DNA of 64,000 nt from Tubiluchus corallicola. Lineage: Eukaryota; Priapulida; Priapulimorpha; Priapulimorphida; Tubiluchidae. The stretch's first letter is position 1; each line of letters begins with the position of its first letter. Below the pieces are notes generated by a model, which worked only from the letters and a program-made list of their open reading frames with translations, was not told the origin of the DNA and did not search any database. Where the stretch lies: the NCBI GenBank assembly GCA_030141605.1, contig JAQGDQ010000201.1:223501-287500 (forward strand). The letters are read 5' to 3'. This document shows positions 1,704 through 58,200 of this stretch, in pieces. Both the position numbers and the translations under genes were made by a program.

Positions 1704-4586
1704 ATGTTTTTATTTTTAGTGCTCACTATTTCTTTGTTGTCAAATTTATATGAAACTGAATGCATACCGGAATTCTGGCTGGGTAAGTGAAAAAAATACC
1801 CTTTTTACAAATCTCGTATGAAAATTAAGCAATCAGAGTACATTTTGCGATTATCTGAACATGCTCTAGCTACTTTGCGTAAAACAATCAGTGATTTTGC
1901 TTATATTATGCTTGTTTATAGTTGTCTATTTAAAATATAATGTCTAACGTGATCTCTATAACGAACTCAACAGTCCAAAAGCAGTGGGCAGGGGAAGCAA
2001 ATATCCTTTTTTGTCCTCTGCAGACGCCCGAAGTTGTCTGTTAAGGAGAATTTTAAAGAAAAACAACATGTTGTTAGTCGTGTACTGGGTGGCCAAGTAG
2101 TCTAGATTTCAGACTGCAACTTGAGTTCAGTCTTGAGTTCGAGACTAGCGGCTGCCAACGCCAGGGCATACACCCTACATGTTATTCGTTGTTTTTGTGT
2201 TGCGTCCTTAACTATATTCTTGTAATTGTAAGACACTAAACAGCCAATAGTGCTAATGTTATTTGTTAAACGAGCGACGGTCAATAAATGTTGTCTTGTT
2301 TATCTTGTTAATACTAGCAAATTCCGTAAGGGACATAAAAAGCCAACTGATACACCAGTGTTTTCTGAACTAAAAAAGAAGATTCACTGATTCTAGCTAT
2401 GCGCCTCGCATCGGGTACAACACAGAAATGTACCAAATGTACAAAACTAAATCGATATAAGCACAAAAGTTTACTTGTAGGAGTGCAATATATAACTAAA
2501 CTTATTAAGGTTCTCTAAATTTGACAGCACGCGATCTTGGCCCCAATGTCAAATTGTCGTCATAGTATTTCTCAAGGCCCCCTCGAGTGATATGACTCAT
2601 GACGCTTCGCCATTCGCGTCTATTCCCAGCCAAACGTGCGTTTCCCATCAAACTATCCCAGACATTTTCCATGGATCGTTTCCAGCCCTTCCACTCTTTC
2701 TGCTTTTTCTAGCTGGAGTCCATTGGGGACTCTGTTTTTGCTAGTCTTCTCTTTTTCATTCTGTGCACATGGTCGAGTAGTCAAGCATTGTTGCCTGAGC
2801 AAACTTGCTTAGGAGTGGTCGTTGGCTTTGTTCAGGTTTCATTCTCACAAACTGTCTATATTAAATTTAGTTACGCTACGGTTTTCGGTATAGAATATCA
2901 AATTGTCCGGTTTCTTATACGCGCTCTCCGTTAGCACCATACAATCCAGTCCGTAAAGAACAACTGAAATAACATTGTTATTTTAAAGAACAACTGAACT
3001 AACATTGTTATTTTAAAGAACAACTGAAATAACATTTTTGTTGCAAAGAACAATTGAATAAACAATGCTGTAGTAAAAAACAACTGAAATAACATTGCTG
3101 TAGTAAAGAACAACTGAAATAACATTGCTGTTGTAAAGAACAACGGAATAAACATTGCTGTAGTAAAAACAACTGAAATAACATTGCTGTAGTAAAAAAC
3201 AACTGAAATAACATTGCTGTAGTACAAAAAACAACTGAAATTACATTGCTGTTGTAAAAAAAAACTGAAATAACATTGCTGTTTGAAAAACGAATTTTGC
3301 TTTGCCGTTCTCAATCTTCTCTTCGTTCACTGTTTCTGAGCTTGTTTGAACGCCCATAACCTTTGCTCAATCTGTCATTGAAAGCCGCTGATTAAGATAA
3401 AATAATCCATAAAAACGCAGAGAAGTTTTAATCTATAATCACCGAGATGCATGTACCATAAAAATTCTCCAAATGAAAAAAAAACTTGAGAGGGCTATTA
3501 TAATTTATTTTCCTTTCAGAATGCAATTCTTCGAGATACGATTGCGCTGTTTTTGATTTTGAACTCGTGAGAAGTGAAGACGGATCATGCAAAAGAGTTC
3601 TTTGCAGGGCTCCGTTAAAGCCATTGGAGATCACTCATACTCCAGTAACGCAACTCAGTGTCATGACGTACAATGTCTACGAAACTGATCCATTTTTTCA
3701 CACCGGACAAGTAGAAAGAACATGTCGTATTCCAACTACGCTCGCTTTTGATTATTCACACCTAGACGTAGTTGTTTTTCAAGAACTCTTTTATGGTGGT
3801 TGCTGGAAATACAGTGGCGCATCCATGAAGGATCTACTTAGCTATTATGGTTTCAAATATATTACTGCTAATGTTGGTCAGGATCCTAGTTGGCCCAGTC
3901 CCGGGTACGACAACAATGGTGGTATATTCATTGCCTCAAGGTATCCCATCCTTCATGAGAAGGAAATGATCTTTCATTCCAGAGACGCGAACGAACGAAA
4001 TAAAGGCGTCATGTATGTTAAAATAGAGAAATCTGATGGAAATAAGAGGAAGGTATATCATGTCTTTGGCACCCATTTAAGATGTTGTCTGCAGCGGGAC
4101 AAGTATCGCCAATTAAGGAGGTTGCAAGCGATCGAATGGAACACGTTTATAAACGATCTTGATATTCCAGCTGACGAGCCGGTCATAATGGCTGCAGACT
4201 TTAACATGGACTTCATACATGACAGGGATCATGTCTTGCAAATGCTTAGCTTACTGATGCTTGCCGTTCCACCAGTGGTCAGTGAGCAATATCCCACCTG
4301 GGATCCAAGTACCAATCACATTCTTTCGTTACAGCTCTTTTCCAATTTTAGAAAAGCAGAGTACATTGATTACGTTCTACCAAGAATTGACTACCAGAAG
4401 CCTCTGCACGCTGAGCAGTACATCGTAAAACCCCAAAGCAAACAGCCATTTAGAATATGCTGGAGATCTCAAATTGGTGAAATTGGATATGTATGGCCTG
4501 ACTCTCGTGAATGTATCGTGACAGAAGAAATTTCTGATTTAGCTGATCACTACGCAGTTATTGGTATTTTTCACTTTCCAGAATAG
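1704..4586 (+). CDS. Secreted neutral sphingomyelinase (SMase C-like), two exons
   Basis: Exons 1704-1782 and 3520-4586; intron GTAAGT...TTTCAG. Exon 1 ends after one base of a codon and exon 2 supplies the other two, so the frame is continuous at 381 codons. Exon 1 starts with ATG and encodes a hydrophobic signal peptide (about residues 1-18). Exon 2 carries the endonuclease/exonuclease/phosphatase fold: Asn in MTYNVY (residue 78), metal-binding Glu in FQELF (115), His in FGTHL (212), Asp and Asn in ADFN (253, 255), and the terminal Asp-His of ADHYAVIG (369-370). This pattern is that of bacterial-type sphingomyelinase C, which hydrolyses sphingomyelin to ceramide and phosphocholine with Mg2+. 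Cysteines near the N-terminus and around GGCW, LRCC, RICW and ECIV fit a secreted, disulfide-bonded protein. The animal has spliced it, so bacterial contamination is excluded. The exact physiological role is unknown; another phosphodiesterase of the same fold is possible. Confidence 0.85.
2954..3284. repeat. About 30-bp minisatellite in the sphingomyelinase intron
   Basis: Eleven imperfect tandem units of 28-33 bases, core CAACTGAAATAACATTGCTG followed by an A-rich spacer. The units drift from a TTATTTT spacer on the left to TGTAGTAAA on the right, consistent with stepwise expansion. Long open frames on the minus strand across it are by-products of a repeat period close to a multiple of three. 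Confidence 0.95.
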
Positions 4587-7936: not shown

Positions 7937-7965
7937 AACATGCAAGACAGCAACGACAGTGACCG

Positions 7966-9531
7966 ATGGCTAAACTATCGTTTTCTTTCTTCCTTATTGT
8001 ACTGTTTGGCGGCAGCTGCTACTGGATGATCTACCGTAATTACATGGATGGCGGCAAATTCACGCAACACAATGCTCAAGTTATCATAGCAATTTCGCAT
8101 TATTACAACGTGAAGGATAACAATCATAGCACGGAACTATCAAAAAGGCAAACAAATGAAAGCTTAAAGCTTAACAAATATGATGGAAGTCCAAAACTTG
8201 CAGAAGCGGAGTGTAAGGTCACCAAACCTAAAAACCATGAAATTCATTTCAGCAACATTTACTGGCAAACTGATGAAAGCAATACTAACTTTTTCTGGAA
8301 TGCCTTTTATGATGGACGATTGTTTAAACTGACTAATGCGCCAAATGCTTCAAAACTGATATGGCCTTTCATTCATGTAATTACAATGAGAGACCATTCA
8401 CAAAAAAGACATGATCTGTATTGTTACTTGTGGTACAATGGCAAAATAGAAGTTGTAAGTGCCACAGAAGAGATGATATGGTTTGACGTTAAAGAGCAAA
8501 TAGAATTCATAGAAAAGACAACGAGGTACGTTCCATATATGGTTCACTGCAGAGTTGCTAACACAAGCAATGTACCAACGTACGTGTCATTGTCGAATTA
8601 TCGACCCTGTTCAAATTCTTCACCAAGAAATTTATATCCCATTAATGCATCCCCAATCCTAGCAAATAGGACTGATTTTGCAGTGTGTGTGAAGGCACTT
8701 GACTTTGACCGTGACATTTCCGCATGGCTAATGGAATGGATAGAAATGCAAAGGAGTTTAGGTGCACGCAAAATATACTTCTATGTCTTCAGTGTAGAAG
8801 CTGCAACAGAAAAGTTACTAAATTATTACAGAGAACAAGGAATAATAGATATGAAAGAGGCGACATTAGCGGGTGATCAACCAAATGAAAAAGCAAACAG
8901 AACTAAGTACCTAAAAGACAGTCCCAGCACTGTAAAAAGATTAAATGAACTGGTTGTACTGAATGACTGCTACTTCAGAGCAATTAGACTTTACAAGTGG
9001 GTAGCAATAGTGGACATCGACGAAGTTTTAGTTCCAGCAAAGTTTAAAACATGGAGTGAGATGGTGCCTGCGGTGCAGAGCCGTAATTTCTACAATGAAT
9101 CCGGGAAAAGAGTGATAAAAAATTGTGCAGCATACTCATTCCAAAATGCTTTCTTTCTTGATCAATTTCTGAATGTAAATGCAAACAATACACCAGCTGC
9201 ACTGCATACACTACAGCACACCAATAGATCTACCCGCCTCTCTCCTGCCAGGTTTTCCATGAAATCTCTGTTTAATACTGACAGCGTGTTGCTGGTGCAT
9301 AATCATAATCCTTTGAAAGTATTTCCTTACATATGGAATTGGTGTGAAGTTCCACCATCCTTAGGTAAAAACCATCACTATCGTCACAACTGTCCCAGAG
9401 ATTTTAAAAACAAAACAAGATGTGACATGTCCTACTTGAATGCAACAGTAGAAGACAAGACAATGTGGAGATATGCAGAAGAGCTTCAAAAAAGGATAGA
9501 CAAGGTAAAAAAAGACATTGGCATATCGTGA
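7966..9531 (+). CDS. Family 92 glycosyltransferase (GalT-like)
   Basis: Intronless 521-codon frame. The start is the first ATG after an in-frame TGA at 7960-7962. Residues 4-22 form a hydrophobic signal anchor, giving the type II Golgi topology usual for glycosyltransferases. The GT92 (formerly DUF23) domain covers about residues 237-490: FAVCVKALDFD, then WMEWIEMQRSLGA-type helix, the strand KIYFYVF, and VAIVDIDEVL with the DxD metal/sugar-nucleotide motif at residues 350-352; the C-terminal HYRHNC region is also typical. Several N-glycosylation sequons (NHS, NES, NAS, NRT, NRS) occur in the lumenal part. Known GT92 members such as C. elegans GALT-1 transfer beta-1,4-galactose to core fucose of N-glycans; the acceptor here cannot be told from sequence. 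A homologue of the uncharacterised invertebrate GT92 expansions is most likely. Confidence 0.88.
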   Translation: MAKLSFSFFLIVLFGGSCYWMIYRNYMDGGKFTQHNAQVIIAISHYYNVKDNNHSTELSKRQTNESLKLNKYDGSPKLAEAECKVTKPKNHEIHFSNIYWQTDESNTNFFWNAFYDGRLFKLTNAPNASKLIWPFIHVITMRDHSQKRHDLYCYLWYNGKIEVVSATEEMIWFDVKEQIEFIEKTTRYVPYMVHCRVANTSNVPTYVSLSNYRPCSNSSPRNLYPINASPILANRTDFAVCVKALDFDRDISAWLMEWIEMQRSLGARKIYFYVFSVEAATEKLLNYYREQGIIDMKEATLAGDQPNEKANRTKYLKDSPSTVKRLNELVVLNDCYFRAIRLYKWVAIVDIDEVLVPAKFKTWSEMVPAVQSRNFYNESGKRVIKNCAAYSFQNAFFLDQFLNVNANNTPAALHTLQHTNRSTRLSPARFSMKSLFNTDSVLLVHNHNPLKVFPYIWNWCEVPPSLGKNHHYRHNCPRDFKNKTRCDMSYLNATVEDKTMWRYAEELQKRIDKVKKDIGIS

Positions 9532-13600: not shown

Positions 13601-16600
13601 AAACAACAATGGCATCATTACTTGTGTTAAAGTGAATCAGCTTATAGAGAACTGACCTTTACTCATCGTTTAATATGAAGTTTTTCAACCCAGATACGTT
13701 AGAAAATGATGTCATCAATCAGTAGTAAAACAAGACATCATAAAATTTATTGACAATATCTTGTAGCAGTTTTACAAGAAAAGTGAATGAGATTATTATA
13801 TAAATTTGCCAAGTTTTTACCACTGACAGTTTTTTAAGATCCAGGATTCCCTTTTTAAGTTTGGGACAATTGGGGAACACATTTTCTTCTTCTTCTTCCT
13901 CTCCCTCTTCCACATCACAAACCAAACATTGGACCTGTAGGAAAACCATTACCAATAAAAAATTATTACCAATACAATAGTCGCCGCTTAATAGACTCAT
14001 GGTTAATAGACTCAATCACTTAATTGACTCAAAAACGCCTGGAACGGGCCGCTTCTATTCAAATATACATAAAAACTATCGGTAATTGACTCAAATAACT
14101 TCGCTTAATTGACTCAATACTTTTCCTTCACGCACTTAAAATAAGACATTTGCATGTGCCCAAACAGCCTTTCCTACTTTTATGTCATCTTTACTTCCCT
14201 TTTGTGCATTACATATGTAGAAACAATCATGTTAAGTACCATTTTGTTTGTTTATCATGCGCTAATACGCTAGTGTAACGGTTTTGTTTTGAATCTGTTA
14301 CCCGTTCGCCCACTGCAATTAACCTCGTTACCCAAAGAATTTCTGGAAGCTAAACATTTAATCACTTGCTTAGCGGCTTCCTTTTGATGCTCTAGTTGAG
14401 TTAATAGCCAAAAATGCAGGTACAGTAATCAGCCAGTATTCCTTGTGACTTACAAGAGTAAACATCATACAGCAAATAAGGGCATAGAGTAGAGAAGTTT
14501 GAAAAATAGAACCCTGTGATCAATGCATTATTCGAACACTGAAGGCATACTATAGAAGAGAAATGCGGGGGAGAGTGTTAGAAGCAATGGGTTCAGACGA
14601 TGCCATTGATCAATTAAGCGCAAACGACTTAGCCAACAAAACTAGCCTCCTGAATGCTTTACCTTTACTGGTTATGTCACAGAGCAATGTAAGTGAGCAG
14701 ATGATTCAGAACTGTTTTAGTCATGCCTGATTCACTTGTGATTCAATTCCCACTACGTTGCAAGAGATAAGCCTGTTACCATCTGCTCCACCTGGTATGA
14801 GCAGCAGCGAGTTTGAGACTAGGTGGAAATTGATTTGGCCATTCAGGTCACGTCGCAAATAACCGATGACGAAATCATCACCATTACAAGGAGGAGTCAA
14901 GAAGAACCTAAAGAGGCCACTTGCGACGAAACAAGGGTACCACCAACTGCAGCCCAAGCATGCCAAGCACTAAATGTTTTACGAGAATACGTGCATCACA
15001 CAGCTACAGATTTTCAACATTTTTATAATTACGAGAACTATGTGAGCCAACTTCTTCGTGAGAAAATGAAGCAGCCAACTTTGAAGGAATTTTTGCATTT
15101 TTTGCAAATAAACAGACTTGTGTGATTTATAAATGTATACTTTTTAAGTTATTGTTAATTCACTTATATATAAATTTTAGTTCACTCGCTGCATTTATGA
15201 TTTAAACAGATTGCTTGCTTTTTTGTTGTTGCATTCATGACGTGTTCAGTTGTTGTTTTAATTTTTAATTGCATTATTTGCTTGCTATTTTTTTCATTGG
15301 TATCATTATAATATAACTGCTTTGCATTTGTTTATTTGCTACACTTAAAACATAACCACGTATTTATTCACCTAACCATGTAGTCTGCCGTGTTTTATAA
15401 TATTTCTAAGTTATATAGGGGTGGCTGACTCGATGACCTCCTGGTCTTTCGCCACCCCATCTTTACATACTTTACACAATTTGTTGTATTTGCGCTGTAA
15501 ATATTGTATTAGAGATGAATAAACCTTTGAATTGAATTGAATTGAACTAAAAGGCAATGTTTTAACACAGAGAATCTTTGCATTTTTCCTCGCTTTTCTC
15601 CTCTTACACAATGCACACAATTGCTGAACTGCAGTGATACAAACTGTTAGCATGTAACATAAATTTGTTATCACACGACATGTGTAGTGACATACTCATA
15701 GAGCAGTTAACGAGTGTGTATTTCTATAAAATTGGCTTGGGAGTACGAAAATAGCAGATGGCCAAAAAAGCCGTGAAAAATTTATAAGTTTTCATTGCAG
15801 TCATTGATATGTATGGCTAAAACACTAAAGAACTGCAATAAAATACTAATTGTGACATCAAATTACAAGAACAAGATTATAATTTAATTACAAAAAATTT
15901 AAAAATTGCCCCTTCTAAAAGAAATTTAAATATGCACAACAATAGAACTAAACAGACAGACAAAAAATAAAAAAAATCTGACAGATAGTGCAAACTACTG
16001 GATGGCTTGTCGGAGCTGTAATATACACTAAAAGATGGCTGAATTTTTAGTATATCTAGTTCTGGAAAAATTTTGAGAACTGTGACACTGTGTGGGCGAT
16101 GACAATAAAATAATCTTTAGCTGCTAGCTTAATATGATGTTAATGACGATTACACTATGCAGTGTACACAGCTGTACTTCTGGCTCAATGTTCAGACAAA
16201 AACACACTACACAGGGCTTTAATAATGCTTGCTTACATGGACAAAAAATATTAAATTAAAATTAAGAGCATAAACATGATACATATTCGGAAAGCTGAAT
16301 GTACTTTCACCTGTTCAGTCCACCAAGGTTTCCAGGGTTCAACTAACCCACCCACCATTCCGCTCTTTACCGCATTGTGAAATTCTTCTCGTTCAGCTTC
16401 TGTGAGATGTGCCCATATCTCTTCTGGGTTTCCATCTAGATCAACACCTGCAGTTTGACACAATAGCAAGTTTGAAACATATGTCTTTATCCAAAATATG
16501 TGTGATTAACTTGTGCTAGTAATGCACTAAAATCAGCTTCCTCTAGCAAGAACACTGTAAACCAAAGAGATTGATAATTTAATCCACAAGGCAAGGGAAA

Positions 16601-18375
16601 GAAAAGGGAAGTTTAAAGTATATCACAGAAAACCTTCTATACAAAGTTACATTACCTACTAATATATATATATATATATATATTTAGAATATATATTTAA
16701 ATATATTTAGAAAGTCAAACATTCAGTCATACACTTATATATGTATGCTATCCAAAATTATAAAATGAGCTGTAATTATAAAAAATATAATTATAAAATT
16801 AACTTCACACCCCTTAATCATTTACGCATAACACAATTAATATTATTTTTGACGTAATTAAACTTTTTTCCGAATTCATTGGAATTTTCTTGACTTATTC
16901 AGCTGTCTGAAACCGAAAGGAATGTTTTTCATATAAACTCAGCAGTAAAACAACTAAAACACCTTGCATTCTTTCTTCAAGACTAAGCTCCTCGTGTTCC
17001 TCTGCATCAAGACACTCTTCCATCTCCAAACCATCGTCTTCCACTTGTTTCAAGATTTTCAACATTTTCCGCCTCTGCACTTCTTTGCTTTGACTACAAA
17101 AAAAGGAAACATATTTACATACTTTACTTCATTTTACTTTACTGATACAGTGATGAAAGCTTTAAAGTTTATTCACTATTTTAACATATTACAAGAATTT
17201 TATATTTGGTCAACAACATAGCCCCAATGTCTCCAAGCAAGATTTGCCAAAATGAACTTGCAGTACAAGGAGGAGCAACACCTAGCAATATGCAATTAAA
17301 CGTTTGTGCATGAAATTCTAGACTGTTCAATATTTTCGTGAGAATCAGCCAAAAACTCATCTAAATTAAAAGACAAAATAAATATTCCACTTAAAATGTT
17401 ACTAATTATTAGATAAGAGTGACTTGCATGGCAGAGATCATAATGTCTTTGAACAAAGCATAAAGTATCTGGGAAAATTCATTGATAAAAAATTATTGTC
17501 ACCTTTGTTCTTGTTGCTGCAACTGTTGCATAAAACATTCTTTGTAAAATTCATCAGAGCACTGAATGTGGGCATCTCCCTTGTAACAGTCTGTAGAACA
17601 ATACGGCACTTTACATTTTGGGCAAGTATATTTTGACTGTGACTTTAGGCATCTAGGATAAAAATAAACATAGTATTACACAAAAACCAGGCCAGTTTTA
17701 TCATATCAGTTAATACAACATTATGTTCAGAGTTATACAAAAATATTGTATCATTTACTATTTAACATATTAAAAGGATAGCTGACTAGATGACCTCTTG
17801 GTCAGCTCACTATCCTCTCTCCCTTTCACTTATTTGTAACAATTAGGCCCTATTTACTTGTATACTGTTGAACTATTGCACCATTGCAAACTGACTGGAG
17901 ATGTGGTTATTGTATACTTTGTAGAAGGAAAAAACTAAATTTTAATTCAATTCAATTCAAAGGGTAGAGAATAAGCTCGGGTTATATACTTTTGTGAGAC
18001 AGACTAATGAAGAGGTTTAAGTACCTAGAACTATTTATTTGTATCATTACTTTGAACTATGTTGCTTTACTTTACACTATACTAAACATCTATAATAAAA
18101 ATAAACACAGTGTTACACAAAAATCTGACCAAATTTGTGATATTAGTTATTATATAAATTATATTCACAGTTGTGCAGATATTAAAACAAAAAGTACAAC
18201 ACATAAATTGATATAACAGTTTAACACTATGATATAATGATAAAAAGGCCTCACTAAGGCAAGGACATAATAACCGAATTTGCAGGAAGTTAGTAGAAGG
18301 ATACACGCAAAATAAAGGTAAATTAGCAATTTTTGAAATGGCTTACAATTTGCAAATAGTAAAGTCTGAATCCAT
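10654..18375 (-). CDS. ZNHIT2: ZNHIT2, HIT zinc-finger protein, eleven exons
   Basis: Minus-strand exons in order: 18375-18347, 17652-17503, 17093-16963, 16447-16311, 13934-13821, 13583-13561, 13485-13401, 13330-13121, 11765-11603, 11126-10989, 10772-10654. All junctions keep frame; total 432 codons plus stop (human ZNHIT2 has 403). Residues 8-41 form the HIT zinc finger: C8, C11, C20, C23, C28, C32, H38, C41, with YTCPKCKVPYCSTDCY typical of the family. The middle has GVDLDGNPEEIW, an acidic run, and EPWKPWW; the C-terminal half has LYAYAYIARLYNGD, the family signature. In mammals ZNHIT2 binds the R2TP/RUVBL1-2 chaperone and helps assemble U5 snRNP (PRPF8, EFTUD2). Exon 1 is only 29 bases and places the first CxxC of the finger across the intron. 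The 23-base exon and the exact acceptor of 13485-13401 (13470 is an alternative) are the weakest calls. Confidence 0.88.
13561..13583 (-). other. ZNHIT2: 23-base micro-exon of ZNHIT2
   Basis: Flanked on the minus strand by TTTTAAATGCAG and GTGAGT. It starts in phase 0 and ends with two bases of a codon, exactly what the neighbouring exons need. Skipping it would require a different donor (GTCAGT inside exon 5) to keep frame. This part of the protein is poorly conserved, so homology cannot confirm it. Confidence 0.55.
13975..15125 (+). mobile_element. Decayed pogo/Tigger-type DNA transposon in ZNHIT2 intron 4
   Basis: The + strand encodes two blocks of a Tigger-like transposase C-terminus in different frames: about 14535-14730 (ending NVSEQMIQNCFSHA then stop, like the SAETIRNCFRKAG block of Tigger proteins) and 14823-15125 (acidic ITDDEIITI stretch, then ACQALNVLREYV and a basic end). 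The left end has GCTTAATAGACTC, TTAATAGACTC, TTAATTGACTC repeats typical of pogo termini. The DDE catalytic core and N-terminal DNA-binding domain are missing, so it is a broken, internally deleted copy. No right terminal repeat is seen; a LINE tail at 15418 may have replaced it. Its left end lies about 40 bases from the acceptor of ZNHIT2 exon 5. Confidence 0.75.
15418..15545 (+). mobile_element. LINE-type 3' tail copy with hairpin
   Basis: Begins with the hairpin GGGGTGGC...GCCACCCC (15418-15425 / 15451-15458) enclosing TGACTCGAT, GACC and GGTC, then about 70 bases, ATGAATAAAC, and a terminal (GAATT)n repeat. Same structure as the tail of the LINE at 34821-38140 and of two other copies. Only the 3' end is recognisable, as expected for a strongly 5'-truncated LINE or a SINE sharing its tail. 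Confidence 0.75.
17662..18200. repeat. Local duplication of ZNHIT2 intron 1 sequence around a LINE tail
   Basis: 17662-17755 and 18093-18190 are diverged direct copies (shared AAAAATAAACA, TTACACAAAAA, ATATTAGTTA blocks). Between them sits the LINE 3' tail at 17775-17960. Either the tail inserted into a duplicated segment or the duplication accompanied its insertion. Confidence 0.55.
17775..17960 (+). mobile_element. LINE-type 3' tail copy with hairpin
   Basis: Outer stem AGGATAG/CTATCCT (17775-17781 / 17810-17816), inner stem TGACC/GGTCA (17791-17795 / 17800-17804), and the shared TGACTAGATGACC core. It ends with an (AATTC)n repeat near 17940-17960. It sits in ZNHIT2 intron 1, on the strand opposite to the gene. 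Confidence 0.75.
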
Positions 18376-18718: not shown

Positions 18719-19644
18719 GGGGCGCCGAGTAATCCACTAGCCGAAGTGGGACACTTCGGGTAAAACGCATGTGCGGCTAAATTTGTTTTAGAAAAAAGTA
18801 ACTTTATAATAATGATGGATACATTGGATAGTCCTTGACAATTTACAAATGTATTTTTTACAACAATATAATCGTAATCATTCGAAGCAACTGGAAATCT
18901 GCTGTTACGACAGCCATTAACAGAGCGAAGAAACGAGGGAGAAAAAACAAGAGGACAAAAGGACTCGTAGGCATCAGAAAGATGCCCTACCTCACCCGGA
19001 TGAAACAGCCTTCCAATGTGCAACCTGCAGCCGGAACTGCAGCTCAAGGATCGGACAGCTCAGTCACAGTCGACGCTGCAGCTCCATCAATTTGATTAAT
19101 AACTAACGTTCTTGGTGCACAATCAATTGTCTTTCGAGACAGAAGGATGCCAACAACAACAATAATCATTATTATTAGCTTCATAAATATCATCATAATA
19201 TCAAGCTAAGTATCTAATGCTTTAAAGAGAGAAACTATGTAGGGCACATAACTCGCTAACACGTTTAGTTAGTATAAAACAATTACTTGTCCAAGAGGGA
19301 GTGAAAGGGATTACCTGTCTGTGAAGCAAGACAAAATAAAAAAGGATATACCTTAAGCAAATGTTGCAATCACCTAAAAAGTGTGCTATTTCACTTCAAA
19401 GAAGCTTAATATTGGCAAATATTAGTTCTTCTAGCTCAGAATAAAATTATTTTATTTTATCAGTTGTATAATAAAATTATTCAACGTGTATTGACGTTTT
19501 TAATTATTATTATTACATAAACAAGGGCAAACGGACAGTGCCAGTACGCTTAGCGACTCATTTCGCGACATGTCTCTAGTGTCCTATTTGGGCAACCCAT
19601 GTACGCCAATTCTCTTGCTTCGGCTAGTGACTTACTCGGCGCCC
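18719..19644. mobile_element. Terminal-inverted-repeat element, copy 1 (MITE-like), split by a SINE
   Basis: The left end GGGCGCCGAGTAA..CACTAGCCGAAG (from 18719) is matched by the reverse complement of the right end at 19618-19644. The internal 0.6 kb aligns with 32697-33417 in the same order: TTTTAGAAAAAA, GACAATTTACA, AAGTATCTAATG, CTGTCTGTGAAGC, CAACGTGTATTGACGTTTT, GTACGCCAATT. It contains a 280-bp SINE (18883-19162). No transposase. No clear target duplication at the outer ends. It lies about 340 bp upstream of the ZNHIT2 start codon. Confidence 0.8.
18883..19162 (+). mobile_element. SINE with (CAA)n tail, inserted in the TIR element
   Basis: Flanked by an 8-base direct repeat TAATCATT at 18875-18882 and 19163-19170, the target duplication. 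The 3' half (about 19010-19160) matches the reverse complement of 41091-41240: AAGGATCGGAC, CAGCTCCATCAAT, GTCTTTCGAGACAGAAGGAT, CCAACAACAACAA. The 5S-like head of the copy at 41091-41594 is not present, so this copy is 5'-truncated or has another head. An open frame at 18835-19095 crosses it and is incidental. Confidence 0.8.
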
Positions 19645-32696: not shown

Positions 32697-33417
32697 GGGC
32701 GCGGAGTACGCCACTAGCCAAACTTTCGCTAAACCGCATGTGCTAAATTTGGGGAAAAGCAGTGTCGTAGGATAGCCCAAGTAGGGCACTGGCGATTTCT
32801 GTCGAGAATAGATTATTATGACATAATAAAACACGAAACTAGATATGTTTTAGAAAAAAACTAACACGACAATTTACATTTAATGTATTATTATTAATAT
32901 TATTAGCCCCATTAATATCTTCATAACATTAAACAAAGTATCTAATGGTTTAAAGACAGAAGCTAGAAACTATATAGGGCAAAAGCTCGCTAGCCCGTTT
33001 ACTTAGTAGAAAACAATTATTTTCCAAGAATTAGTGAAACGATCATCTGTCTGTGAAGCGAGACAAAACAAAAAATGATATAGCTTAAGCAAATGTTGGA
33101 ATCGCCTAAAAAGGGGATCTTATTTCACTTCAAAAAGATTAATATTGAAGTCAAGTTTAATATTGGCCATTCTACTAGCTCAGAGCAAGACTTTTTTTAT
33201 TTTATCAGATGTATAATAAATTTTTCAACGTGTATTGACGTTTTCAATTATTATTATTAATTAAACAAGGACAACAGACGCTTCCAGTACGGTTAACGAC
33301 TCAACTCGTGACCTATCTCTAGTATCCTACATAGGCTAGCCCAAGTATGACCCGTTCTACTTGGGCTAGCCCATGTACGCCAATTGTCCTACTTCGGCCA
33401 ACGTCCCACTCCGTTCC
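32697..33417. mobile_element. Terminal-inverted-repeat element, copy 2 (MITE-like)
   Basis: Same family and orientation as 18719-19644 but without the SINE. Left end GGGCGCGGAGT..CACTAGCC; the right end read in reverse is GGGAACGGAGT..GGCC. Near the right end is a perfect 14-base inverted repeat, GGCTAGCCCAAGTA (33334-33347) with TACTTGGGCTAGCC (33358-33371). It starts 270 bp upstream of the CDK7 start codon. Confidence 0.8.
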
Positions 33418-34803: not shown

Positions 34804-34903
34804 CCCAGCAGTATTAGCGATAAATAATAATAATAATAATCTTTTATTTATCTTTTAACACACACAGTTACAATACAATTAATTTAGCAACAAAAATGTG
34901 AAG

Positions 34904-34948
34904 AAAGGGCAGCGAAGGACCAATTGGTCATCTAGTCAGCTGCCCTTT
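34904..34948 (-). other. 3' UTR hairpin of the LINE
   Basis: On the LINE sense strand: AAAGGGCAGC paired with GCTGCCCTTT (ten base pairs), enclosing TGACTAGAT, GACC, AATT, GGTC. Equivalent hairpins occur at 15418-15458, 17775-17816 and 54838-54873 with different but still paired outer stems. In LINEs of this type the reverse transcriptase can recognise a 3' stem-loop in its own RNA. Confidence 0.8.
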
Positions 34949-35453: not shown

Positions 35454-38033
35454 TCAGTAATAAGTTTGCAAGAGTTGACATTTATATAATTTACTTAAGT
35501 GACAGATACTAGTTGATTGCTTAAGATCATCTGAAAGAGTATTCCATAGAACTGTACCATTATGTTTTAAAGTTTGTAAACCTTTTGTTGTGTTAAATCT
35601 TTCCTGAAAATAGTTTTGTTTGGTAGCTGCTCTCGTAGAATACTGGTGAACGTCACTAATCTTTTTGAAATAATTGCCGTACAATTTAGGTAGAATGCCC
35701 TTTTTATAGTTGAACATGAATTTCGCTAACTCAAGCTTATAAATTTCATTAATTTTTAATAATTGCAAAGCATAATAGGAGGGGGTAGCATGATCTCGGA
35801 ACCCAGCAAAAGTCATTGTTTTGGTAATTTTGTTATGTGCTGCTGTAAGTGGTTTCAAAACAGATTTTTTTGCTGTGCCCCACGATAAGATACAATAGTT
35901 AATGTGTGGGTACACAATGGCAAAGTAAATCATTTTTAGTATATCCGTGCTCAAGTAATGCCTCAATTTAAAAAATATACCTGTAACTTTGCTTACTTTG
36001 TAGGTAATATTTTTTATGTGTGTTGACCAATTAAGGGTGTCATCTATGTAGACGCCCAAATATTTTATGTCTGATACTTGTTCTAATAAACAGTCTTGCA
36101 TGGATACTGTTATAATGGAGTTTTCATTGTTTTCAAATTTATTTCTTATGATCATAAATTTTGTTTTATTATAGTTTACTGTTAACTTATTTGTATGCAT
36201 CCATGTGTTAATTTTGATCAGTTCTTCATTACTTTTAAGCTCAAGAATTTGCGTATCGTTGTCTGCTAAGAAGAGGTTAGTGTCATCAGCAAAAAGTCGT
36301 GTTTGCATGTTAGTACAAAGAGGGAGGTCATTTATATATATCAGGAAAAGAAGTGGACCCAAGGTGGATCCTTGAGGTACACCACATTGTATTGAGCATA
36401 GGTCAGAGGCAAAATTGTCAACTACCGTAAATTGGTGTCTGTTCGTAAGATATGACTGGAATAGTTTTTGCGTGATTCCACGGATACCATAATAGTCCAT
36501 TTTGTTGAGTAGAATGTCGTGTTGAACGGTGTCAAAAGCTTTTGTTAAATCAAGAAAGATGCCGCAGGTAAGTAATTTATTGTCTAGGTTTGTCAGAAGA
36601 TTGTCTATGATTTCAGCAGTTGCTAATATTGTGGAATGATTTTTGCGGAAACCGAATTGAAAACACGATATTGTATCATTTTTGATTAAATATGTCATCA
36701 GGCGTTTATATAAAATTGACTCAAAAATTTTGGCAATGGGTGATATGAGTGAGATGGGTCGGTAGTTGTTCAGCTCGTTTGGATCATCTTTTTTATATAT
36801 GGGGATTACTTTTGCCAGTTTTAAAGTGTCGGGGAATGTCCCAGTCAGAATTGACGCATTAAACAGATTTGTAAGCGGAGTTAAAATTATGTTTTTTGAC
36901 ATTTTGAAATATGTAATTGGGATGTCATAAGGGCCTTTTGCTTTATTGGGATCTAGTCTATCAATAGCTTGGGAAATCTCGATTTCGCTAACTGGTGTGA
37001 TATAGAAAGAATTTTCTTGGGGATGCATTAAATAGTCTGTATACTTACAGTTTTGGGGTTGTGTTATGCGTGATGCCAGTGATATACCAATGTTTGCAAA
37101 AAAACTGTTAAAAGCATTAGCTTTATGGTGCGGGTCGCATGAGGTTGTGCCTTGGTAACGAACTTTAGTTGGCATTATACTTGCTGTCTTTTTTTTAATT
37201 TTGAGAAGTTCATTGATAGTGCTCCAAGTTTGTTTCATGTTATTTTTGTTTGCAAGCAAGATCTGGGAGTAATACTTCTTTTTGGATGCATGTTTGATGT
37301 GATTAAGTTTGTTAGAATATGTTTTATATAAATTTTGCTTATACAGTGAGTTGGATAACTTGTGTGTTGTATACATACGGCTTCTTGTTTTAATAGAATT
37401 TAGAATGCCGGGAGTGATCCATGGTTTAGCTATAGTTTTTGAGTTTTTCCTTGATAACGTTTTGAGTGGGGCATGTTTGTCAAGTAATGTTTTAAACGAG
37501 TCCATGAATTGTGAGCAGTAAGAGTGTATGTCTGCTTCGCCATCATTCAGTGTTAGGTTACTTATATTAACTTGAAGCTCGCTTAAAAAGTTACCTTGAT
37601 TGAATGATCTCGTACATCTGACTGTTTTTTTAATGTTGTTGTGCAGGAGATTAGTATTTCTTATATTGGCAAATATTGGCAAGTGGTCCGCAATGGGGTT
37701 AGTAATGATGCCAGATGTGATGGGTGTAGAAAGATTATTAGTATAAATATGATCAATTAGGGTGTGTGACGTTGGAGTAATTCTAGTTGGTCGCGTGATA
37801 ATTGGTGTAAATTGATTTGAGAAGAGCATGTTGAGATACTTATTAATGAATGGTTTGTTATCATGTTGATATAAGTCTATATTAATGTCTCCACATATAT
37901 AAGCTGGTTTGCCTGTGGAGTTGATAGTGCAAAGAACTGATTCTAATTCGTCATGAAAATGTTCGACTGGGGTGTTTGGATGCCTATATATTATTCCAAA
38001 TATAAAATATTTTTTGTTATCGGTGGAAGCAAT
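35454..38033 (-). CDS. LINE endonuclease-reverse transcriptase (N-terminus missing)
   Basis: About 859 codons stay open from after a TAA at 38036-38034 to the stop. Order: C-terminal half of an APE-type endonuclease (GIIYRHPNTP, AYICGDINIDL, SLIDHIYTN-like TLIDHIYTN, IADHLPIFANI), then the reverse transcriptase with AKVIPIYKKDDP, NYRPISLI, KAFDTVQHDILL, GVPQGSTLGPLLF and the catalytic RLFADDTNLF, then the thumb/C-terminal region (KYLGVYID, LWNTLSDDLK). Domain order and RT blocks are those of the CR1/L2 group. It makes cDNA at a nicked target. The first ATG in frame at 37829 is internal to the endonuclease and is not a biological start. Confidence 0.92.
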   Translation of the reverse strand: MASTDNKKYFIFGIIYRHPNTPVEHFHDELESVLCTINSTGKPAYICGDINIDLYQHDNKPFINKYLNMLFSNQFTPIITRPTRITPTSHTLIDHIYTNNLSTPITSGIITNPIADHLPIFANIRNTNLLHNNIKKTVRCTRSFNQGNFLSELQVNISNLTLNDGEADIHSYCSQFMDSFKTLLDKHAPLKTLSRKNSKTIAKPWITPGILNSIKTRSRMYTTHKLSNSLYKQNLYKTYSNKLNHIKHASKKKYYSQILLANKNNMKQTWSTINELLKIKKKTASIMPTKVRYQGTTSCDPHHKANAFNSFFANIGISLASRITQPQNCKYTDYLMHPQENSFYITPVSEIEISQAIDRLDPNKAKGPYDIPITYFKMSKNIILTPLTNLFNASILTGTFPDTLKLAKVIPIYKKDDPNELNNYRPISLISPIAKIFESILYKRLMTYLIKNDTISCFQFGFRKNHSTILATAEIIDNLLTNLDNKLLTCGIFLDLTKAFDTVQHDILLNKMDYYGIRGITQKLFQSYLTNRHQFTVVDNFASDLCSIQCGVPQGSTLGPLLFLIYINDLPLCTNMQTRLFADDTNLFLADNDTQILELKSNEELIKINTWMHTNKLTVNYNKTKFMIIRNKFENNENSIITVSMQDCLLEQVSDIKYLGVYIDDTLNWSTHIKNITYKVSKVTGIFFKLRHYLSTDILKMIYFAIVYPHINYCILSWGTAKKSVLKPLTAAHNKITKTMTFAGFRDHATPSYYALQLLKINEIYKLELAKFMFNYKKGILPKLYGNYFKKISDVHQYSTRAATKQNYFQERFNTTKGLQTLKHNGTVLWNTLSDDLKQSTSICHLSKLYKCQLLQTYY

Positions 38034-54837: not shown

Positions 54838-54945
54838 GGTGAGTGACTAGATGACCTACGGTCTTTGCTTACCCTGTCTCCATGGATAAAGTAGTTTTTT
54901 GTAAAATGGAATTTGTGACACATTATTGGAGAAAATAAAAGTCTA
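54838..54945 (+). mobile_element. LINE-type 3' tail copy with hairpin
   Basis: Outer stem GGTGAG/CTTACC (54838-54843 / 54868-54873, one G-T pair), inner GACC/GGTC (54853-54856 / 54860-54863), TGACTAGATGACC core, then GAAAATAAAAGTC. Same module as the three others, on the + strand. Confidence 0.7.
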
Positions 54946-54951
54946 TGTTTT

Positions 54952-55272
54952 TCATAATAATTTTGGCTGCTTAAAGCTCAATCTCTCCTTAAAAAGTTTT
55001 AAATTGGGTGCATTAACCACTCTTTCTGGCAAACTGTTCTGCTTGTTCACTACACAGTGTGAAAAAAATGAACTTTTACAATTAGTTCTTGCATAACATT
55101 TATACGGCTTCTTAGGATGACTGCGAATGGACAGTAGAGGTGCAGCCTTAAGTAGTGTATCACAGCTAACGCGATTGTCTGCATTTATGTACTTGAATAC
55201 TTCGTACAGGTCAGCTGTTTCTCTTCTCTGTTGGAGTGAACATATCTCAGACGCAAATGGGCTGCATAACAC
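54952..55272 (-). mobile_element. LINE reverse-transcriptase C-terminal fragment
   Basis: The minus frame has QQRRETADLYEVFKYIN, CKSSFFSHCVVNKQNSLPE and RVVNAPNLKLFKERL, which is the widely shared C-terminal block of CR1/RTE-like LINE proteins (RR..GDLIE.FKI.., RK.FF..RVV..WNSLPE.VV.A.....FK..L). The usual Trp before NSLPE is Gln here. It points away from the + oriented tail at 54838, so two separate insertions abut. Confidence 0.75.
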
Positions 55273-58200
55273 AATCGCAAGTGCAGAGATGCCTAGTTGA
55301 AAACCTATTTCTTTATTTCCACTTCATTGTTGAGATATGTCTTCTAAATCAGACTGTTGTGTACTAATCTCAGCTAAACATTGAAAACTATGCAAAATTT
55401 TATTTTTAGCTAATATAACATCATATAGCTAATAAGTAAAGGACAGTATTTGTTTGGAGCTATATTTTACTTTCATCAATAATTTACAAAGAATTTACAT
55501 ATAGGGGTTACTTGGGGTTACCGTATATAGCCAAGACCTTCTTCACCAAATAGGCGAGCAAATTGACATGCTAAAATGACTAAAAAGTGCCAGTTTGCAA
55601 GATCAAAATGCATTTTATTCACTTTATTCACACAAGTTTCATCTTTTCAACCAGTCAATATCCACTTTGCTGTTTACTCGCTTTTCTTTACTCTTTTAGC
55701 TGCAGCAACTCTGTGACATACAGTCAAACTTTTCTTAATCTATCTTTGTTGCTATCACACAGAATATATTATGTATTGCACATACGTGGGTTTCTCAATT
55801 CCGATTCAGTCTCATTCTATCCCAGGTTGCGAAATTAGCCTGTGCAATTTCCAGGAATAGAATGCACATGTGGTAGAAATTAGCAAAAGAATACTATACA
55901 TAATAAAACTGCAAAGAAAGTTACAAATAAAAATTTTTCATGTTTAAGTGATAAACTTGTGTGCGCACCACCATCACATAGAGGCGAAAGGGCACCAAAA
56001 TCATTATTGGCTTCTCCGGATAGAAGCAGCCAACATTAGTTATCTTTGGCTGCCAACTCATTTGGCATCCTGTACTTCTGTGTGAAATTTATGTTAGCAA
56101 CTTATTTGTAAATAAAATTTTGCTCATAGCATAGGCTTGTGCTTAGTAGCCTTATTTGGCCAGCCTTATATTTTTTGATCAGTCATCTACCTTCAAGAAT
56201 GATCGATGAGCAACTAATCACGATTGATAGCAATTTTTTATAGCTTTGCCATTTTCATTATTTTAGAATGTTAAATTTTTTGCTGTTGTTTTACCTCTTA
56301 GGGTTAGAATTATAAATTGTTGTAATTGTTACTCGCACAATAAACTGTATTTATTGGCTATCATGTGTTTTTATATGAAACATTGTCATACATGTGTTAA
56401 TGTTTGAGTAGCTGGTTTACAAAAAGCTCTAAACAGTAATCAGATACTAGGTAAACAGTCTTATTCAGCCGTCATAAACTTAAGCTGTTCTGACAGAAAG
56501 ACATTCTGCAAAGTGCAGTATTTTAATTAATAAAACACTGTTTCATCTTAGTGCATTTTCAATAGAAAAGCAGTGGGAGAATTTGCCCTGGTCTCCTCGC
56601 GTGGAGATGGCGCTGCCGATGTGATTCCGTGATCAATGGCAGAACCATATCACCCATGTTGTTTTCATATTGCTTTTTGGCTGTTTCATTTGCCAAATTT
56701 CTTTCATATTTTTTTATACGTTGTTACACATATTCGTATAAATGTGTTGTTAATGACATTTCTTGCTAATTGGCACTGTTAGTTTTTTGTCCTGCAGTAA
56801 TTAAATGGCAGAACAGTGGTGAATAGAGTGAGCACTTCTCCGGATTTGTGCAGACGTGTCAGGGAATTCGGCTAGTTATGAGGGAGCTAAATGCGTCAGG
56901 GACAATCATTGTTTTGCAATCGAGCCCATATTTTTTAAACTTACAATTAAATTGAACCAATATAAATGCATGTTAATGAAATTAACCCGAAATAAATATG
57001 TGCTCCGTTAACTTTCCGGCACAGTTATAATTGTTACGTATAATTGTTTTAGCTTTTCAAATTTCTTTCGATGTTTAATTTTTTCGGCTCCTGGTTAAAC
57101 CTACCTTGGTGATTCACATTGACTATGATTACACATGATTAGTCACATTCTAAAAAACCCCAAGAAAATTATTGACAGTTGCCATTGCAATTGCAAAATA
57201 TACTTTCAAAGCGTAAAATTTTGTTTATTTGTGGTATTGAACTTCAAACATAACGTGTTTGATGTTTCATCACTAAATTGCAGTACAGTATACAGTAATT
57301 AATTTTTTCTTGTGTCATGAAATAAAAAACTAAGCCACTATACAGAAAACTCTAATAATCGTTCAATTTTTTTGCATCATTTTAGATTGCAAAGTAATAA
57401 AAAAATTTATAGTTGCTGGCTTGCTGTGCCACGTTGGCGACTCGCAGTGAGTCCGGGACAACTCGTTTCCACACTTTTCCCCATTACAATTGACTAACCT
57501 GAGATGTTAGGGAAATCACTTTCACAAGGTGATCACCCTAGTGGTGAAGTGTGCAAAATCTTACACAAATGTATAATTAAGCAGTCGTGGATTATGTTCA
57601 TTGATTATTTCTTAGTCGCGTGTGACTGATTTTCAATTAAATTGATTAATCTGAACAACTAGTATGCAGTTAGTTATCATTAACTATAATAACATTTAAT
57701 AAAAACTGGGCTAGATTTAATAACTGGCTTAAAAAATTTTCTTTGGTTGTCAAATTAGTAAATCTTTAACTACTAGTCATTAACTAACTATCTATACATA
57801 CATCCACCAGTAAAATTCTGTCCAAAAAATTTTAAATTTATCATTTGTCTGTATTTGAAAATTACGTTTTCTTAAGAAATCATAGATTTCTCGGACCTTA
57901 ATGTTAATGTTCAGAACTTTTGAATTAAACTGCTTTGTAAATCTGTTTGAATGTTGAATAATACTTTATTGATACTGATTGTTTGCGGTTGTAGAATGGT
58001 GGTTCTACATTTACCGAAAAGTTAATTACGTGTACTATGTTTCTTCTTGTACCATTACATTTATTTTGCGACTAATAAATAAGAACACCAGTCGTTTGCA
58101 ATCTACCTTGCCTCTTGCTGATTTCTTACAAACTTCAAATAGAACTGCTGTGGGCTTTAGAAATGTGAGATGCAAAAAGAGTGACACCTAAGAGACCTAA

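Follow-up and report, generated by a model that had tools for sequence, protein, structure and literature searches.

The hairpin at positions 34904..34948 raises the question of whether it is an RNA fold kept by selection and, if so, to which element it belongs and what reads it. It is one of four in the window, that is, the whole stretch of 64 kb analysed here, which comes from an assembly of 343.5 Mb in 2344 contigs. The four had been noted to share a core and an inner GACC/GGTC stem, and all of them were found in place. The family C hairpin (34904..34948) reads on the minus strand, which is the strand of its LINE, as AAAGGGCAGC-tgactagat-GACC-aatt-GGTC-cttc-GCTGCCCTTT. The other three lie on the plus strand and correspond to family A (15418..15458; GGGGTGGC-tgactcgat-GACC-tcct-GGTC-tttc-GCCACCCC), family B (17775..17816; AGGATAG-c+tgactagat-GACC-tctt-GGTC-agctca-CTATCCT) and family D (54838..54873; GGTGAG-tgactagat-GACC-tac-GGTC-tttg-CTTACC), the latter apparently truncated in its own 5' arm. 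Outer stems measured 10 bp at 34904, 8 bp at 15418, 7 bp at 17775 and 6 bp at 54838. The combination of the core (at most one mismatch), the inner stem and an outer stem of at least 6 bp never appeared in 200 simulated first-order Markov windows. A covariance model, R1, built from 16 copies of the four window families and run over the window with filters off, returned four strong matches (E 6e-15 to 1.3e-10), together with two weak reverse-strand echoes of two of these hairpins; Rfam at gathering scores gave no match in the window. Folded one at a time, all four sequences formed an outer stem, and all but the decayed family D copy, which adopted another inner fold, formed the GACC/GGTC stem.

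Some features of the four hairpins differed from what had been anticipated. Homology of the family D copy (54838..54949, plus strand, extending from 6 nt before the core to around 105 nt past it) to its own family begins 5-6 bases before the core. This copy seems to be cut off inside its 5' arm and its 6-bp stem was therefore considered a relic, the proper outer stem of the family being GGGGTGAG/CTCGCCCC. The variant core TGACTCGAT, regarded previously as the exception in one tail, turned out to be the ordinary core of family A, with 120 genomic matches (62 + 58, at most two mismatches) as compared to 0 + 0 for the control. The inner stem is invariant within the window and provides no pairing evidence there, but it varies and stays paired in the relatives described below. 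The repeat tails are (TTGAA)4 in the family A copy (15527..15546, plus strand, 68 nt 3' of the hairpin), (AATTC)3 in the family B copy (17944..17958, plus strand, 128 nt 3' of the hairpin) and (ATT)n in the family C LINE (34823..34840, minus strand, 63 nt 3' of the hairpin). The first two are mutual reverse complements and are thus different tails on the same strand.

In the 343.5 Mb genome the core TGACTAGATGACC occurred 300 times (145 + 155) vs. 7 (3 + 4) for the reversed pattern, although genome-wide copy counts may be inflated since the assembly contigs are partly redundant. The same Wnt matches were present at identical coordinates in contigs C457, C628, C2254 and others; these matches are strong, and Wnt is a family known from animals. 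Genomic copies were collected from the first 69 of the 300 core places, fetched as 68 loci (8 loci plus 61 places in 60 regions). The fetched loci and the window contained 77 occurrences of TGACTNGATGACC, the overlapping L072/L073 pair being counted twice, which were distributed among families C (53), D (11), A (5) and B (3), with 5 unassigned. With L073 excluded, 67 fetched loci were searched with R1, and 63 of them gave E values of 4e-5 or lower. The remaining four were L075, which has lost its 5' arm (E 0.0013), the doubtful L120 (E 0.33), and L123 and L124, where the core is present without a hairpin and R1 gave no match; two such hairpin-less cores agree roughly with a background of 7 in 300. 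Only four long LINE copies in the 67 loci and the window share at least 1500 bases at 93% identity or more. Further F3- and F7-like copies (families defined below), not selected by the exact core, were present in the flanks of other loci. The stretch 17750..17960 (plus strand), which holds the family B element copy, matched DNA at 39 further places at 75-83% identity, plus one short match at 88%, among the matches listed. One family A copy (L085:403-675, minus strand) has four head-to-tail hairpins in tandem, with a period of 76 bp, followed by a normal tail.

A separate set of genome contigs gave no match to the core pattern. Viral contigs gave 69 core matches, 3 of them with an inner stem and none with an outer stem, and neither these nor L123 and L124 carry a full hairpin. 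A looser pattern retrieved six viral loci, two of which were reported by R1 (L172, 22.5 bits, E 0.0012; L173, 11.2 bits); L172 was judged a chance match because no outer stem is visible in it. No relative of the LINE protein was confirmed in the separate genome-contig and viral-contig sets.

The family C hairpin lies around 500 nt 3' of the stop codon of a LINE, in its 3' UTR and on the same strand. The LINE open frame (35454..38033, minus strand; 859 amino acids from stop to stop) contains a reverse transcriptase (RVT_1, PF00078, 9.4e-34) and a partial endonuclease (Exo_endo_phos, PF03372, 8.1e-5), the latter with 22.9 bits, below the cut-off of 24.5. This copy is probably 5' truncated, as the longest frames of the family reach 1109-1121 amino acids. 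In the PDB, 10 sequences matched the protein; their names are R2, LINE-1 ORF2 or simply reverse transcriptase. When the genome was searched with the protein, at least 56 matches were obtained, 28 of them at 75-100% identity (including the one in the window) and 28 at 45-54%. We fetched the 3' ends of 24 of the 28 more distant relatives, the other four stopping short of the end of the protein; 18 of these 24 had no stop codon within the match. The hairpin was present in sense orientation in the 3' UTR of all 24, around 320-620 nt downstream of the protein match (around 800 in L145). R1 found 20 of them, none of which was used in training (E 2e-11 to 6e-6), whereas the four with a variant core (L138, L144, L150, and L151), which make up family F1, were read directly as AGGTGAG-TGTGTTAAT-GACC-GTAT-GGTC-GTACA-CTCACCT. 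According to hairpin and tail, the 24 relatives form seven families (F1, 4 members; F2, 2; F3, 7; F4, 4; F5, 5; F6, 1; F7, 1), and an eighth, F8, appeared in the flanks of other loci (L129 and L137). Since the 24 were picked by their similarity to the LINE of the window, they represent one group. In families C and F1 to F7 the hairpin belongs to the LINE. As a negative control, six segments located 3' of reverse transcriptases were chosen from 150 scored PF00078 matches; no strong R1 match was found in these six segments (L166 was weak, E 0.048), the control being thin, since L162 and L163 alone have the look of genuine LINE 3' ends. These two belong to one family; their LINE-like ends carry an AATAAA box, a (TCAA)n tail and a GCCCAAGTGGGC hairpin, and no TGACTAGAT motif.

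In the hairpin, a lower (outer) stem of 7-10 bp, changeable while remaining paired, and an upper (inner) stem of 4 bp are separated by an asymmetric internal loop, and both stems are backed by paired changes. The conserved strand of the internal loop, TGACTAGAT or near it, faces around 4 nt, usually TTTC. This 5' strand was TGACTAGAT itself in B, C, and D, differed from it at one to three positions in A, F3, F4, F5, F6, F7, and F8, and had one base more in F2; in F1 it was TGTGTTAAT, so that the core is not absolute. On the opposite strand ten families have TTTC, CTTC or TTTTC, B and F1 being the ones that deviate, and the apical loop was variable (3-5 nt, with differing letters). When 3' ends were compared across families (11 families, each represented by one 3' end of at most 1.1 kb, shorter for A and B; E 0.01), the 22 matches corresponded to the hairpin (13), the hairpin through to the tail (1, A with F2), the tail (6) and other segments (2, which are 16 and 37 nt long).

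Downstream of the hairpin, the 3' tails consist of short tandem repeats and not of poly(A) (ATT, AATTG/TTGAA, AATTC, TCTATG, CATAGTT, ATTACT, and ACTT among 11 families), and in 10 of these 11 families an AATAAA box closely precedes the repeat, B being the one without it. The gap from hairpin to repeat was 60-73 nt in 9 of 11 families. Lengths, which are good to a few bases because a motif was used to define where the repeat starts, were 63 nt in C, 68 in A, 66 in D, 73 in F1, 70 in F2, 68 in F3, 64 in F4, 70 in F5 and 60 in F7, the exceptions being B (128 nt) and F6 (121 nt). In F8, which is additional to these 11 families, the gap is around 103 nt by eye. In family C, 32 of 53 entries had an intact GATTATTATT tail start 62-67 nt past the hairpin; in the other 21 (both L072 entries and the L073 doubles included) tails were altered, switched or lost. 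L127, L116, and L119 are family C copies with (ATGTT)n-like instead of (ATT)n tails, which represents a tail switch within one family. Copies of family C had a common 3' end, with 5' ends ranging from -8 to -3096 (52 entries, L072 and L073 counted twice) and showing some clustering (six at -295, five at -221). A common 3' end with varied 5' ends is as expected of target-primed reverse transcription.

Compensatory change around a fixed core had been put forward as the mark of a selected RNA fold, and we assessed covariation by shuffling instead of with R-scape. In the 16-copy alignment, 96.4% of the cells were paired vs. 86.2% after shuffling and 31 double changes occurred vs. 12.4 (0/500 shuffles as high in both cases), whereas neither the count of doubly changed pairs (6; 84/500 as high) nor that of pair types (237/500 as high) exceeded the shuffles. 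A table of one copy from each of 12 families was then considered; family tables were aligned by hand because MAFFT misplaced F1 and F2. In the outer stem, 94 of 96 cells were paired (shuffled mean 79.6) and 19 double changes, which may represent few events, were counted (shuffled mean 5.7; 0/10,000 as high for either parameter). In the inner stem, 47 of 48 cells were paired (shuffled mean 43.3) and 5 double changes occurred (shuffled mean 1.3), values reached in 2/10,000 shuffles. Two-sided changes affected seven of the eight outer pairs and two of the four inner pairs. The innermost outer pair, for instance, goes from C-G to G-C; the inner stem shows replacements of G-C by A-T and of C-G by T-A, and appears among the relatives as GACC/GGTC, AACC/GGTT, AACT/AGTT, and GACT/AGTC. 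When whole arms were swapped in an 11-family version, none of 5000 replicates reached the observed pairing, double changes or covariation score, and pair types were not above the shuffles; foreign arms paired fairly well (34 of 132 combinations reached 8/8). As the shuffles take no account of relatedness, and some changes were surely inherited together, this covariation is a strong but not a tree-based test. With paired cells and double changes both exceeding the shuffles, the proposal of a selected fold was supported.

The best explanation of all this, and one that we consider probable, is that related stringent-type LINEs (non-LTR retrotransposons) form a group whose 3' tails are recognised through this hairpin. 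The LINE protein would hold its own RNA by the internal loop and the stems, the basic stretch that separates endonuclease from reverse transcriptase probably making the contact; the internal loop would be the part that is read, and this grip would set the repeat tail on the nicked target DNA, where reverse transcription would start. A stretch rich in basic residues, KPW.T.GIL.S.K..SR, lies between the two domains and is kept in the four families compared (C, F2, F3, and F5). Its place is that of the tail-binding region of ZfL2-1 and ZfL2-2, an agreement that proves nothing by itself; in the L2 clade that region is marked by conserved P, W, E, W and basic residues, and the stretch here keeps KPW and many basic residues. 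Against the recognition structure stand the spacer length, which breaks in B, F6, and F8, the differing core of F1, the clustering among family C 5' ends and the lack of LINE-protein matches upstream of the A, B, and D copies.

Binding of the hairpin by the LINE protein is suggested by analogy with known systems. In the account given in PMC4176376, the 3' hairpin of the zebrafish L2-clade elements ZfL2-1 and ZfL2-2 is essential and owes its specificity to the loop; exchanging the stems, provided that they pair, leaves function at least partly intact, and the part of the LINE protein that binds the hairpin lies between endonuclease and reverse transcriptase. As in those elements, a 3' UTR hairpin with a lower and an upper stem is followed here by short repeats. 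Each ZfL2 LINE is described there with a loop of its own and without mutual substitution in retrotransposition (PMC4176376), whereas here around a dozen families share one core, and it is the apical loop that varies, the conserved letters being those of the internal loop. In the eel elements UnaL2 and UnaSINE1, as summarized in PMC5135761, both the hairpin and a (TGTAA)n repeat are needed for transposition. By description, the plan of a 3' hairpin plus repeat is similar, but UnaL2 has an apical GGAUA loop with a small internal loop, shared with the SINE. The same source describes an essential hairpin in SART1, a silkworm R1 LINE whose reverse transcription starts at repeats just downstream (PMC5135761); by description, SART1 differs in its clade and in its telomere-like GGUU repeats. 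It also mentions molluscan V-SINEs with predicted 3' stem-loops, whose 3' ends resemble those of CR1 LINEs (PMC5135761), an invertebrate case compared here by description.

The selection on the fold is silent on who reads the hairpin, and it could instead be a selected element of the LINE transcript acting in RNA stability, export, translation or 3'-end formation, a role that would fit the AATAAA box closely preceding the repeat in all of the 11 families but B. We consider this unlikely. The hairpin accompanies copies that end at a short repeat, one (TCAA)n-tailed LINE having another hairpin instead, and retrotransposition of UnaL2, ZfL2, and SART1 is described as depending on the 3' hairpin, for which LINE-protein binding has been demonstrated in ZfL2 (PMC4176376, PMC5135761).

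The original prediction also allowed for LINE subfamilies or parasitic SINEs using the same structure. The part on LINE families stands, with 24 of 24 relatives carrying the fold, whereas no tRNA-like head was found that would sustain the part on SINEs. That families A, B or D are SINEs borrowing a LINE hairpin seems improbable. Upstream of the A, B, and D copies, up to 3.5 kb of sequence gave no match to the LINE protein of the window, and 26 of the 39 longer family B matches start at a single base, 17750; yet this base may merely be the truncation point of the B copy in the window, and family D copies have scattered 5' ends. ARAGORN detected no tRNA in the 60 loci searched of the 68 fetched, and simple A/B-box patterns gave nothing in six A, B, and D copies; a tRNA-derived SINE was thus sought in the window, in the fetched loci and by A/B-box patterns, and none was found.

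Mere common descent of the tails, with a fold that is not selected, is very unlikely: the carriers with a known protein are indeed related LINEs, but their proteins are around half different and little of the 3' UTR aligns beyond hairpin and tail, yet the core is kept and both stems covary. Chance, or a DNA-level palindrome in unrelated sequence, does account for the exact cores of L123, L124 and the viral contigs, but as an explanation of the hairpin it is refuted by 300 genomic matches vs. 7 and by the fit of 63 of 67 loci to the model, and its probability is negligible.

Returning to the hairpin as a recognition structure, one family's protein may accept another's RNA, since the core is shared while the tails differ. 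A wider proposal, which we advance only tentatively and hold to be possible rather than probable, is that one recognition code, an internal-loop hairpin placed 60-73 nt before the start of reverse transcription, is common to at least 12 families. These would form a network, each protein being able to copy the RNAs of the others; outer stems and tail repeats would drift freely, and the length of the spacer would set the position of the start site.

Searches of one literature collection with the core string, its shorter pieces and its variants retrieved nothing that, judged by title, is related, and on that search alone the hairpin appears to be undescribed so far. According to PMC5135761, the choice of RNA by LINEs has been worked out experimentally for a few elements, UnaL2, ZfL2, SART1, and R2 among those covered there. 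Such tags are known in a few LINEs, and the present case is one tag, with one core, kept across around a dozen LINE families with its conserved letters in an internal loop. A single genome thereby offers a dozen natural variants displaying which letters are fixed, which pairs can change and what distance separates the hairpin from the start site, so that specificity, cross-mobilisation and the spacing rule become directly testable. In addition, the covariance model finds LINE 3' ends with diverged cores.

Other features were observed in the window. The family D copy lies just past the stop codon of an open frame (54952-55323, minus strand) for which Pfam gave no match; this frame ends in NSLPERVVNAPNLKLFKERLSFKQPKLL, an ending that we take to resemble the C-termini of LINE reverse transcriptases. 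Open frames at 7963-9531 and 3504-4586 (both on the plus strand) correspond to glycosyltransferase family 92 and to the endonuclease/exonuclease/phosphatase family, respectively. A tandem array with units of around 30 bp (self-match offsets in steps of around 30) occupies 2953-3296, inside a minus-strand open frame. Finally, two longer repeats were detected, a pair at 19162-19603 and 32890-33347 (460 bp, 80% identical) and an inverted pair at 14021-14368 vs. 45139-44824 (72%).
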